Below the pieces are notes generated by a model, which did no database searches, was not told where the DNA came from, and saw only the letters and a program-made list of their open reading frames with translations. The position numbers were made by a program, and so were the translations under genes. A DNA stretch of 36,980 nucleotides from an uncultured Sphingomonadales bacterium (GTDB lineage Bacteria; Pseudomonadota; Alphaproteobacteria; Sphingomonadales; Sphingomonadaceae): assembly GCA_937870585.1 (NCBI GenBank), contig CALMZE010000131.1, forward strand, positions 1-36,980, given 5' to 3'. Below are positions 22,737-36,980 of this stretch, piece by piece; position 1 is the first letter of the stretch, and every line of letters starts with the position of its first letter.

Positions 22737-22818
22737 TCGTGCTGAGCGTGTCGAAGCACTGTCTTTCTCTGGACAATTAGGCATCAAGAAAAGCAGTGCT
22801 TCGACACGCTCAGCACGA
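22737..22818. repeat. Palindromic repeat with perfect 25-bp arms
   Basis: The arm TCGTGCTGAGCGTGTCGAAG... (22737-22761) is exactly complementary to 22794-22818, giving a 25-bp stem. The arms and parts of the loop (CTGGAC, GGCATCAAGAAA) match the repeats inside the nuo operon, so this is a member of the same dispersed family. Placed between the convergent hom and sulfotransferase genes, it may act as a two-way terminator. Confidence 0.85.
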
Positions 22819-28007: not shown

Positions 28008-28098
28008 CCGTTCGTCCTGAGCTTGTCGAAGGACTGTCCTTTTCTGGACGCAGCGGCATCAAGAAAGGGCAGGGCTTCGACAAGCTCAGCCCGAACGG
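28008..28098. repeat. Palindromic repeat in the nuoB-nuoC spacer
   Basis: The left arm starts CCGTTCGTCCTGAGCTTGTC (28008), and the right arm ends GACAAGCTCAGCCCGAACGG (28098). Arms of 29 nt match at 25 positions, so the transcript forms a long hairpin. The nuoC ribosome site begins just past it. It belongs to the same family as the copies at 28752, 35110 and 22737. Confidence 0.85.
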
Positions 28099-28751: not shown

Positions 28752-28843
28752 CCGTTCGCCCTGAGCTTGTCGAAGGGCTGCCTTTCTCTTGCCTCTGCTT
28801 CAAAGAAGGAAAGACAGGGCTTCGACAAGCTCAGCCCGAACGG
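28752..28843. repeat. Palindromic repeat in the nuoC-nuoD spacer
   Basis: Left arm CCGTTCGCCCTGAGCTTGTC (from 28752) and right arm ending CAAGCTCAGCCCGAACGG (28843) pair over 29 nt with four mismatches. The orientation is the same as the nuoB-nuoC copy, and the nuoD ribosome site GGGGAG follows directly. Confidence 0.85.
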
Positions 28844-28861: not shown

Positions 28862-30073
28862 ATGAGCATGACTCCCGAACTTTCGCCCACCACCGGCGAT
28901 GAAACGATCCAGAACTATACGATCAACTTCGGCCCGCAGCACCCGGCGGCGCACGGCGTGCTGCGTCTGGTGATGGAACTGGACGGCGAAATCGTCGAAC
29001 GGCTCGATCCGCATGTAGGCCTGCTGCATCGCGGCACGGAAAAGCTGATCGAATACAAGACTTACGCGCAGGCTTTGCCCTATTTCGACCGGCTTGATTA
29101 CTGCTCGCCGCTCGGCATGGAGTATAGCTATGTGCTCGCCTGCGAGAAGCTGCTCAACCTCGAAGTGCCGTTGCGGGGCCAGTATCTGCGCGTGATGTTC
29201 GCGGAGCTGACGCGCATCTGCAACCACATGCTCAACCTCGGTTCGCATGTGATGGACGTGGGCGCGATGACGCCCAACCTGTGGATGTTCGAACTGCGCG
29301 AGGATTGCCTCAACTTCTTCGAACGCGCGTCGGGCGCGCGGATGCACTCGGCCTGGTTCCGCGTGGGCGGTGTCCATCAGGATGTGCCGCTCAAGCTGCT
29401 GACGGACATTGGCGATTGGGTCGATGGCCGTCTGCCCGAACTGTTTGCCGATGCGATCAGCCTTGTGGCGGACAACCGCATCTTCAAGCAGCGCAATGTC
29501 GATATTGCGATTGTGAGCAAGGAAGACGCGCTAAAATGGGGCTTTTCCGGCCCGATGATCCGCGCGGCGGGCATCCCGTGGGACATCCGCAAGTCGCAGC
29601 CTTATGACGTGTATGATCGTGTCGATTTCGACATTCCGGTCGGCACCAAGGGCGATTGCTATGACCGCTTCATGGTCCGCGTGGCCGAGGTCTATCAGTC
29701 TGCGCGCATCATCAAGCAGTGCCTGCGCGACATGCCCGAAGGCCCGGTGGCAAGCGAAGACCGCAAGGTCGTTCCGCCCAAGCGCGCCGCGATGAAGACG
29801 GACATGGAAGCCCTGATCCACCACTTCAAGCTCTACACCGAAGGCTTCCACGTGCCCGCAGGCAGCGTCTATGTGGCAACCGAAAGCCCCAAGGGCGAAT
29901 TCGGCGTTTATCTGGTGAGCGACGGCACCAACAAGCCCTATCGCTGCAAGATCCGCCCGACGGCCTTTTCGCACTTGCAGGCGATGGACTTCATGTCGCG
30001 CGGCCACATGCTCGCGGACACCACCGCCATTCTCGGCGCGATGGACATTGTGTTTGGGGAGTGTGACCGGTGA
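28862..30073 (+). CDS. nuoD: Complex I subunit NuoD
   Basis: A protein of 403 residues, the 49-kDa subunit. [14 protein letters not shown] holds the quinone-binding His; [14 protein letters not shown] and the C-terminal [10 protein letters not shown] are conserved. It forms the quinone cavity with NuoB. Start ATG follows GGGGAGATC. After its stop come two non-nuo genes before nuoE, which is unusual. Confidence 0.98.
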
Positions 30074-30104
30074 TTTCGTGCTGGAAATACAAGGAGATAG
30101 AGAG

Positions 30105-30329
30105 ATGGCAGAATTTCTAAAAGTCAACGTGATTGATGGATGGTCAGATTGGGTTTTAGGAGAAACCATGATCAATGTTTCGACGATCATTACCGTCAAG
30201 CCACGGGATGGCAATGAAAATGGCAGCGCACTAATTTATGTGCCGACTAGCATGAGATGTCAGGGTGTCCTCACGGTCAAAGAATCTTATAAGGACGTGA
30301 TGAGACGTTTAAACGCGAATTTTTTGTAA
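30105..30329 (+). CDS. Small hypothetical protein inserted in nuo operon
   Basis: A protein of 74 residues from an ATG with a strong AAGGAG ribosome site 8 nt upstream. No cysteines apart from one in SMRCQG. The pattern INVSTIITVKPRD, ALIYVPTS, VLTVKESYKDVMRRL suggests beta strands followed by a helix, faintly like small FlbD-type proteins, but no function is recognised. The segment is A+T-rich: a hand count gives about 45% G+C over 30121-30300 against about 65% over 30421-30480. The different composition and position between nuoD and nuoE suggest a late insertion. Confidence 0.65.
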   Translation: MAEFLKVNVIDGWSDWVLGETMINVSTIITVKPRDGNENGSALIYVPTSMRCQGVLTVKESYKDVMRRLNANFL

Positions 30330-30363
30330 TTGCCTAATTTAAGGTTGAGTGAACTACTGCGAA

Positions 30364-30699
30364 ATGATTGACCGTCTCGCCATCGCCACGCAGATGATCG
30401 CGCACTACAATGCGCAGGATGCGGACGCCTATGTGTCGCTGATGACCGATGATGCCTGTGAAGCGGGCTATCGCGGCGCCGTGGTGCGGGAAGGCAAGGA
30501 AGGCACGCGGGCGGGGCTGAAGGCTATGTTCGCGGAATTTCCTGAAAACCGTGCCGAAATCGTGACCGGCTATGCGCTGGGTGAGTATGCGGTGCTGCAC
30601 GAACGCGTGTTCCGCTCCTCAACCGCAGAGCCGTTCGACGTGATGACGATCTATTCCTTTGAAGGCGACAAGGTGTCGCGCGTGGAGTTTGTCCGCTAA
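30364..30699 (+). CDS. NTF2/SnoaL-like fold protein
   Basis: A protein of 111 residues from the ATG at 30364; a GTG at 30349 preceded by AAGG is the other choice (116 residues). DRLAIATQMIAHYNAQDADAY is the opening helix pair, and later strands (EIVTGYALGEYAVLHERVF, IYSFEGDKVSRVEFVR) fit the NTF2-like/SnoaL cone fold, used by isomerases, dehydratases or ligand-binding proteins. Its stop and the nuoE start share one base (TAATG), so it is translated with nuoE. The role in or near complex I is unknown. Confidence 0.75.
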   Translation: MIDRLAIATQMIAHYNAQDADAYVSLMTDDACEAGYRGAVVREGKEGTRAGLKAMFAEFPENRAEIVTGYALGEYAVLHERVFRSSTAEPFDVMTIYSFEGDKVSRVEFVR

Positions 30700-35109: not shown

Positions 35110-35201
35110 CCGTTCGTCCTGGGCTTGTCGAAGGACTGTTTTTCTTCTGGGTGCCGCGCTGAAAAGGGAGGGCAGGGCTTCGACAAGCTCAGCCCGAACG
35201 G
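35110..35201. repeat. Palindromic repeat in the nuoG-nuoH spacer
   Basis: Left arm CCGTTCGTCCTGGGCTTGTC (from 35110) pairs with a right arm ending CAAGCTCAGCCCGAACGG (35201). This is the third member in the operon, again in the same orientation and again just before a ribosome site (AAGGAG of nuoH). Confidence 0.85.
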
Positions 35202-35228: not shown

Positions 35229-36710
35229 ATGACCTATACCCAATGGTTCCAGTCCTGGGCCGGTGAGAATCTCGGCTGGCTGATTAGCCATATCACGCTG
35301 ATCCTGCTGATCGCCCTGCCGTTGATGCTGGCCGTGGCCATGATCATTTACGCCGATCGCAAGATCTGGGCGGCGATGGCGCTGCGGCGCGGGCCGAACG
35401 TGGTGGGGCCGCTGGGCCTGCTGCAATCCTTCGCGGATGGCCTGAAGGTCATGTTGCAGGAAACGATCATCCCCTCTGCCGCGAACCGGGGCCTGTTCCT
35501 GCTCGCGCCGATCATCACCTTCACGGTGGCGCAGATTGTGTGGGCGGTGATCCCGTTCGGCACCAAGATGGTGCTGGCGGATATCAATGTTGGCCTGCTC
35601 TACATTCTCGCGGCGTCCTCGCTCGGCGTGTACGGCGTGATCATTGCGGGCTGGGCGTCCAACTCCAAATACCCCTTTTATTCGGCGCTCCGTGCGGCGG
35701 CGCAGATGGTGTCTTATGAAGTCTCGATCGGCTTCATCATCATCGGCGTGGTGCTGTGGGCAGACAGCTTCAACCTGTCGACCATTGTCGAGGCGCAGAA
35801 GGGTGCGGGCGTGCTGCCCTTCCTCAACGGCTTTGGCTTCAACCCTTTGCTGTTTCCGCTGGCGGTGATGTTCCTTATCTCGGCGCTCGCTGAAACGGCG
35901 CGTCCGCCGTTCGACCTCACCGAGGCGGAGAGTGAGTTGGTCGCGGGCTATCAGACCGAATACAGCTCGATGGCGTTCGCGCTCTACTGGCTGGGCGAAT
36001 ATGCCAATGTCATCCTGATGTGCGCGCTCAATGCCGTGCTGTTCTGGGGTGGCTATCTGCCGCCGGTCGATTGGGCACCGCTCTATGCCGTGCCGGGCAT
36101 CGTCTGGCTGTTTGTGAAGATCCTGATCTTCTTCTTCATCTTCTCATGGATCAAGGCGACGGTCCCGCGTTACCGCTATGACCAGCTGATGCGGCTGGGC
36201 TGGAAGGTGTTCCTGCCGCTGTCTCTGCTGTTCGTCTTCCTGATTTCGGGCTGGCTCATGTATACGAGGTACGGCAAAGCTGCCCCTGCGAGCACGGCTG
36301 AAGAAGCAATCGTCTACAAATGTACGTATGGGCAGGATGGTCAACATAACGACCCAAACGCTCTGACCCTTCTCGCCAAGGTTGTACTTCCGGTAGAGTC
36401 AGGCGTTACGAATTTTAGGAATGGAAATCGGTGGAATTTGACACTGCCGGACGGTCGGGATGTCACGGCTGACCCATTTGAATATAATGCGGGTGGTCTG
36501 GGCGGTTCCCAAGGCATCCAGTGGAAAGATAATTCTGGAGCTATCAAGAAGGCCTACATCTTCTACAGCGATGCCATCGCCAACGGCGGGTGGTCTAACG
36601 TAGCAATTTCTCTTGATGCAGTGCCTCAGGATGGACAGCCATTCTACCCGTCAAAGGGCTATTTTTGCCTCCCTACGAAGAACAATGATGGACGGACCAT
36701 TTTGAAATGA
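35229..36710 (+). CDS. nuoH: Complex I subunit NuoH with C-terminal extension
   Basis: A protein of 493 residues; NuoH is usually about 340-350. Residues 1 to about 349 are a standard ND1/NuoH: eight hydrophobic helices with conserved cytoplasmic loops ([54 protein letters not shown]). Placing those loops inside puts helix 8 ([14 protein letters not shown]) running out, so residues 350-493 should be periplasmic. This tail is soluble, Asn/Gly-rich, has exactly two Cys (365 and 480) that could pair, and is encoded by A+T-richer DNA (hand count about 50% over 36301-36480, about 65% over 35401-35460). No known domain is recognised. The stop overlaps nuoI by ATGA. Start supported by AAGGAG. Confidence 0.95.
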
Positions 36711-36980
36711 GCACCATCGCCCACCTCATCAAGACCTTCACCCTGTGGGAGTTTGTGAAGGCCCACGCCCTCACCTTGAAGTATTTTTTCAAGCCCAAGG
36801 TGACGATCAACTATCCTTACGAAAAGAACCCGATTTCGCCGCGATTCCGGGGGGAACATGCGTTGCGCCGTTATCCCAATGGCGAGGAACGCTGCATTGC
36901 GTGCAAGCTGTGCGAGGCGATTTGTCCGGCGCAGGCGATCACCATCGAGGCCGAACCGCGTGAGGATGGCAGCCGCCGCA
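36707..36980 (+). CDS. nuoI: Complex I subunit NuoI, truncated by window end
   Basis: The first 91 codons are present. They read [16 protein letters not shown], then [20 protein letters not shown] and the first [4Fe-4S] motif [15 protein letters not shown]. This is the 23-kDa ferredoxin-like subunit carrying N6a and N6b. Its ATG overlaps the end of the extended nuoH (ATGA), so the nuoH extension is followed in the normal way. The rest lies past the window. Confidence 0.96.

Follow-up and report, generated by a model that had tools for sequence, protein, structure and literature searches.

The nuoH locus of the window

The window, by which the whole stretch of DNA analysed here is meant, is the complete contig C131 of genome G000 (36,980 bp) and carries much of the nuo operon; its genes other than nuoH bear the names that we presume for them from the sequence. 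The nuoH open reading frame (ORF), located at 35229-36710, encodes 493 amino acids. Its core is complete to residue 349 (..GWLMYTRYG) and is followed in frame by KAAPAST...GRTILK, which bears out the proposal of an earlier note that the frame reads through the usual end of NuoH into a soluble extension, here of 144 residues. Pfam NADHdh (PF00146) covers residues 25-339 (E 7e-116, 387 bits against a cut-off of 27) and the NCBIfam NuoH equivalog NF004745 covers residues 14-347 (486 bits against a cut-off of 450); by this full-length profile match above the cut-off the protein is assigned to the NuoH family. The features of the region are as follows:

35229..36275, + strand: NuoH core, residues 1-349, complete (Pfam NADHdh and NCBIfam NF004745)
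36207..36266, + strand: last hydrophobic segment of NuoH, about residues 327-346, anchor of the tail, taken as transmembrane (TM) helix 8 (sequence; homology to ND1 as given in an excerpt of PMC9696053)
36276..36707, + strand: C-terminal tail, residues 350-493, soluble, with two Cys, predicted periplasmic, strand-rich in a low-confidence model (sequence and model)
36321-36323, + strand: TGT codon of Cys365, first of the proposed disulfide pair, position 18 of 146
36666-36668, + strand: TGC codon of Cys480, second of the proposed pair, position 133 of 146, 13 residues from the C-terminus
36707..36979, + strand: 5' part of nuoI, running off the contig end; its ATG overlaps the tail stop (ATGA)

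The contig ends 270 bp past the tail, within nuoI, whose first 91 residues are open up to that end; the tail is therefore flanked by nuo sequence on both sides. The TGA of the tail overlaps the ATG of nuoI in AAATGAGC (36705-36712), giving a nuoH/nuoI gap of -4.

Counted from residue 350 the tail has 144 residues, and 146 when counted from residue 348. It contains exactly two Cys, at 365 and 480 as previously reported and now read directly from their codons, spaced 115 apart and with 13 residues after the last one. There are 13 K/R and 14 D/E in the 146 residues, and on inspection the tail shows no hydrophobic stretch long enough for a TM helix. The lower G+C content noticed earlier is also found, at 0.51 in the tail vs 0.60 in the NuoH body (third position, 0.52 vs 0.84). 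Both alternative frames of the tail contain many stops. Since there is no in-frame ATG, GTG, or TTG between the end of NuoH and the first Cys of the tail, a separate start hidden before this Cys is ruled out.

NuoH tails at the nuoH/nuoI junction of related genomes

The genus sample comprises 13 genomes. In nine besides that of the window, NuoH stops after about 347-350 residues and the junction is tight, with the stop on the nuoI start; one more (G008) yielded only a NuoH fragment. The genome G004 encodes a fused NuoH tail of different sequence, again with two Cys, and in G001 a separate ORF of 152 residues, with a hydrophobic start and two Cys, extends from the nuoH stop to the nuoI start. 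The survey was built from 11 genus loci including the window, 44 loci of named relatives (L018-L060 and L072, from 80), and 134 of 139 family loci outside the genus (G106, G167, G318, G341, and G361 were left out). The latter come from a family search in which 378 of 397 genomes matched and the best 150, 139 of them outside the genus, were used, so that the survey leans towards NuoH proteins most like that of the window. A script classified 190 loci, 186 of them distinct, as tight (gap below 60 bp and a tail of up to 25 residues), as having a gap of at least 60 bp, or as having a NuoH tail of more than 25 residues. The family is called sphingomonad here because, among its junctions, three are identical to Sphingomonas records and one to a Sphingomonadales record.

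The 186 distinct junctions comprise 140 tight ones, 31 with a gap of at least 60 bp, and 15 with a tail of more than 25 residues. Exactly two Cys are present in each of the 15 tails (30 Cys in 900 residues), and past about residue 347 no Cys occurs in any of the 140 tight NuoH proteins. A Poisson model with the Cys rate of the tails themselves puts two Cys in all 15 tails at about 10^-10, a value that ignores shared ancestry, and some tails are clearly related (L186 with L188, L037 with L045). This constancy makes the disulfide suggested in the earlier note likely. Three tails are long when counted from residue 348, namely those of the window (146 residues), G004 (137 residues; Cys spacing 103, 10 residues after the last Cys), and G286 (128 residues; spacing 99, 12 residues after the last Cys). 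The other 12 are short, with 32-50 residues, and may be a separate phenomenon. Longer NuoH open frames were also met outside the family (G464, G527, G471, and G516); their tails are only 1-5 residues long, so the extra length lies upstream. The same applies to the 989-residue NuoH frame of G210, which has no tail.

These data bear on whether the window tail arose by an assembly or sequencing frameshift that joined NuoH to an unrelated downstream gene. The nine genus relatives that end NuoH near residue 349 with a tight junction, and the nearby contig end, are what such an artefact would lead one to expect. However, no start is hidden before the first Cys, nuoI is found in its usual overlap, and fused tails recur, long in G004 and G286 and short at 12 loci, which leaves a frameshift extremely improbable. 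The alignment with related genomes proposed in the earlier note thus excludes an isolated frameshift, even though the NuoH of most relatives ends near residue 349.

Separate genes at the same junction

The 31 gaps fall into five of 121-124 bp and 26 of 371 bp or more. In all 26 gaps above 300 bp, an ORF of at least 90 amino acids starts between -10 and +4 relative to the nuoH stop (at -3 in 21 gaps), the ORF taken by the script at each locus being the longest one that starts near this stop. A hydrophobic start, defined by a Kyte-Doolittle value of at least 1.8 in a 12-residue window, is present in 24 of the 26, with L127 (1.1) and L213 (1.4) below this value. Exactly two Cys are encoded by 23 of the 26, and four each by L019, L025, and L148. 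Both features are combined in 21 ORFs, with the two Cys spaced 94-119 apart and 6-21 residues after the last Cys. In some stand-alone proteins the first Cys is close to the hydrophobic start or inside it (in L117, position 13, inside).

The junction two-Cys module is a class defined in this analysis, its spacing range being taken from these 21 stand-alone ORFs. The window tail is enclosed by the NuoH core and nuoI, with its stop overlapping the start of nuoI, and it fits the stand-alone architecture because its values of 115 and 13 fall within 94-119 and 6-21. In the window protein, the last TM segment of NuoH would take the place of the export signal, given the topology expected by homology.

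Other ORFs were observed in the gaps as well. Four of the short gaps (L033, L036, L043, and L219) contain an ORF of 43 residues that lacks Cys and has one hydrophobic segment, and L042 is similar. In L033 it reads MSRASEWM..LRPQALRDRALAGVGIGLMVVLIDRMMG; it starts on the nuoH stop, has no Pfam match, and is a different, tiny membrane protein of the nuoH/nuoI junction. At L025, L026, L123, and L294, where the gaps measure 909-1664 bp, two or more ORFs for exported proteins with Cys seem to follow one another.

Restriction to nuoH/nuoI

Gaps of at least 200 bp were counted at 10 of 58 nuoH/nuoI loci (G001 counted twice), 2 of 58 nuoG/nuoH loci, 3 of 191 nuoI/nuoJ loci, and 0 of 186 nuoJ/nuoK loci. 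Gaps of 60-200 bp occur at nuoI/nuoJ (57/191), nuoG/nuoH (12/58), and nuoJ/nuoK (19/186). No exported two-Cys ORF was found among the two longest ORFs in each of the five gaps of at least 200 bp at these other junctions; one 75-residue ORF in a large gap there has two Cys and no hydrophobic start. Tails of more than 25 residues beyond the query are likewise absent from NuoG (0/58 loci), NuoI (0/192), NuoJ (0/186), and NuoK (0/183).

A profile of family A1, built from eight junction proteins (L006, L058, L059, L110, L202, L163, L135, and L200), matched 10 times in 394 genomes, always between nuoH and nuoI; seven of these matches are seeds or copies and three are new. A profile of family A6 gave seven matches in 249 genomes, two copies of a seed and five new ones, all at nuoH/nuoI. 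Because both searches score only part of the first candidates, they may have overlooked distant copies elsewhere. Of the four junctions and five subunits compared, only nuoH/nuoI and NuoH have the modules.

In 36 further named alphaproteobacterial loci (L061-L071 and L073-L097), no NuoH exceeds 354 residues and no gap exceeds 124 bp. All 28 loci of a class-wide sample of other families (L254-L281) lack a tail of more than 8 residues and a gap above 124 bp, and three more loci outside the family with longer open frames have NuoH tails of only 1-2 residues, their gaps measuring 14, 67, and 173 bp. Of the 120 matching genomes outside the family, 89 were judged by open-frame length alone, which is uninformative on inserted genes.

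Relatives and predicted fold of the window tail

The tail has no significant match in Pfam or NCBIfam (the best Pfam entry is Cloacin, E 0.11) or among PHROGs profiles (E 0.2), no match to PADLOC defence profiles, and no sequence match in the PDB up to E 10. Structure prediction and a fold search, as the earlier note proposed, gave a strand-rich model and no fold: AlphaFold2 predicted eight strands for the tail alone (mean pLDDT 44) and seven for L058 with L059 (mean pLDDT 52). Both models are too weak to use, and Foldseek found no PDB match for them at E 0.001 or better. Both of these low-confidence models place the two Cys on the first and last strands.

When searched against 397 genomes, the tail gave two weak matches besides itself, in G057 and G210. 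The first lies within a long frame, which we take to resemble an outer-membrane receptor, and was dismissed as chance. The second we take as a true relative, because a separate stretch with the first-Cys motif of the tail sits across an insertion element; by then both stretches were already rows of the query profile. It appears as follows:

L236, 932-3990: gene of G210 related to the tail, standing alone and interrupted by an insertion element

The gene encodes an N-terminal hydrophobic stretch and the matching first-Cys motif and is split in two by the element, which is presumably of the IS21 type, the adjoining gene being, we assume, lexA-like. It lies about 28 kb from nuoH in a genome that encodes a tailless NuoH. 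When the window tail, the G286 tail, and the two separate G210 pieces were combined in a profile and searched against 394 genomes, no further members came up, so the relatives found are the NuoH tail of G286 and the unlinked G210 gene. The domain of the window tail seems to be movable and to have been joined to NuoH in at least two lineages, since the window and G286 tails have an unlinked relative in a genome with tailless NuoH. The capture of a gene, one of the origins considered in the earlier note, is supported by this relative with its hydrophobic N-terminus and by the stand-alone genes of the same architecture at the junction in relatives. Alignment of the three long tails with family A1 (hhalign) indicated no similarity (probability 0.1 percent); among junction proteins searched with phmmer, no row of the window tail stood in the best 80, and in these two comparisons no significant link to the junction families was found.

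Selection on the modules and the rival readings

The tails of the pair L186/L188 have a low dN/dS (dS 0.69, dN 0.06), as does one stand-alone pair, L291/L292 (dS 0.40, dN 0.02). The sign is weaker in the tail pair L037/L045 (dS 0.28, dN 0.07). With dN of 0.43-0.82, the tails of L176, L217, and L228 change fast, their two Cys being kept. High values were also obtained for the stand-alone pairs L290/L293 (dS 1.46, dN 0.47) and L058/L059 (dS 0.91, dN 0.48); L288 and L289 are nearly identical.

The main rival to a role in complex I is that the modules are only cargo. It assumes that the junction tolerates small exported proteins working elsewhere in the envelope and that the fusions are near-neutral accidents which persist because they are harmless. 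Such hitchhiking would agree with the hypervariable sequences and their patchy presence (46 of 186 junctions with a tail or a gap of at least 60 bp), with the unlinked relative in G210, and with the high dN in several pairs. It does not agree with the restriction to nuoH/nuoI and NuoH among the four junctions and five subunits, with the occurrence of A1 and A6 nowhere else in the genomes searched, or with the low dN/dS of one tail pair and the Cys pair kept in 15 of 15 tails. We consider cargo an unlikely explanation, yet one to be taken seriously.

It could also be assumed that the modules form a fast-changing cap which protects complex I on its periplasmic face, or the cell as a whole, from attackers such as phage, bacteriocin, or a rival's toxin, their diversity resulting from an arms race. 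A hypervariable sequence in a fixed site and architecture, present patchily and with high dN in several pairs, is the pattern expected from such a shield. However, the window tail does not match defence profiles, the closest pairs (L186/L188 and L291/L292) have low dN/dS, and we know of no attacker. We regard the shield as improbable.

Topology and comparison with known complex I subunits

Within its core (PF00146) the window protein resembles an ordinary NuoH/ND1 over residues 25-339, and chain 8qby_H, which we take to be from Paracoccus denitrificans, aligns with window residues 15-345. This chain differs in being 345 residues long; it is aligned up to its residue 331. Other members of the family are longer and also have extra C-terminal sequence (8e9g_H, 408 residues; Thermus Nqo8, 4he8_H, 365 residues; NCBIfam NF004743, 433 positions), but their alignments end at window residue 340-353. 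In Thermus Nqo8 the addition is a ninth TM helix, according to an excerpt of PMC8762328, whereas the window tail is soluble and lacks a hydrophobic stretch of TM length.

The excerpt available of PMC9696053 gives ND1 eight TM helices, with L285 in the eighth and last, near the matrix side. The C-terminus of NuoH should therefore face the intermembrane space, which corresponds here to the periplasm. The periplasmic side assigned to the tail in the earlier note gains support from this homology, and it fits the export-type starts of most stand-alone junction ORFs. A cytoplasmic tail touching NuoI or NuoB could be considered, as the side of NuoH in the window organism is given by homology; the eight helices of ND1, the last of which has a residue close to the matrix side (same excerpt, PMC9696053), the export-type starts of most stand-alone counterparts, and the recurrent Cys pairs all argue against it, and we judge it very improbable.

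A parallel in place is found in mitochondria. An excerpt of PMC8762328 describes the CX9C subunits NDUFA8, NDUFS5, NDUFB10, and NDUFB7 as accessory subunits that contain disulfide bonds and sit on the outer face of the membrane arm, with NDUFA8 making up the base of the heel and touching ND1. They are separate helical proteins with CX9C motifs, whereas the window tail, with a strand-rich low-confidence prediction, has no CX9C motif and a single Cys pair 115 apart. The resemblance is one of place and chemistry, not of family.

In bacteria, lineage-specific extensions of core subunits are described, in the parts of PMC8357420 and PMC11522691 used here, for the C-termini of E. coli NuoB, NuoI, and NuoF and of Paracoccus ND6. 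The same parts place bacterial accessory subunits on the peripheral arm (as in Paracoccus) or at the domain interface, and mention nothing but core-subunit loops and hairpins on the periplasmic side, in Paracoccus the ND4/ND5 hairpins and a loop insertion of ND5. The C-terminal extensions given there have 22-45 residues and lie in the peripheral arm or at the domain interface, and the periplasmic ones are loops, unlike the tail of about 144 residues with one Cys pair in the window NuoH. Among the titles listed in a literature search, none deals with a periplasmic NuoH module or an insertion between nuoH and nuoI.

Proposed role of the junction modules

It is proposed that the window tail originated as an extracytoplasmic domain with two Cys, which was captured and became fused in frame to NuoH, and that the nuoH/nuoI junction serves in sphingomonads as a fixed site for such modules, occupied by a separate gene or by a NuoH tail. 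The separate gene would start on or near the nuoH stop, begin with an export-type hydrophobic segment, and end on the nuoI start; in the fused form, the last TM helix of NuoH would replace the signal. The module would come to lie below NuoH on the periplasmic side, where the membrane arm has its heel, and a single disulfide would close it by joining its first and last parts. Its production might be kept in step with that of NuoH by translational coupling. As a lineage-specific accessory piece, the module may help to assemble or stabilise the corner of complex I formed by NuoH, or it may contact a periplasmic partner.

We hold with moderate confidence that the junction modules are probably lineage-specific periplasmic accessory parts of complex I, coupled to NuoH and in some lineages fused to it. 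Against this reading stand the 140 of 186 junctions without a module, the several fast-diverging pairs, the position of the first Cys at or in the hydrophobic start of some stand-alone proteins, and, for the window tail, the lack of significant similarity to the junction families in the comparisons made and an unlinked gene as one of its two relatives. The wider proposal is that sphingomonads have many times evolved a periplasmic, disulfide-stapled module of complex I at one operon position, as a coupled exported protein or, in several lineages, fused to NuoH, and that it is a hypervariable parallel to the intermembrane-space subunits under ND1; this we consider possible rather than probable. 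If the proposed role is correct, then a periplasmic module on NuoH, the quinone-site subunit, would be a new handle on the stabilisation or regulation of the heel of complex I, and a single junction at which such modules were captured and fused again and again would be a case of complex I gaining accessory parts within one bacterial group.

Other features of the nuo operon in the window

Two extra ORFs are located between nuoD and nuoE, at 30048-30329 and 30349-30699. The one of 93 residues has no Pfam match at E 0.01 and the second encodes a SnoaL_2-like protein (Pfam E 3e-13); the nuo operon of the window therefore carries further cargo. The sequence TTCGACAAGCTCAG occurs in four inverted pairs with a spacing of about 60 bp and at most one mismatch (8 matches vs 0.02 expected), one pair lying between nuoG and nuoH and another between nuoC and nuoD:

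22742-22813, 28017-28089, 28761-28834, and 35119-35192: inverted pairs of TTCGACAAGCTCAG, with up to one mismatch
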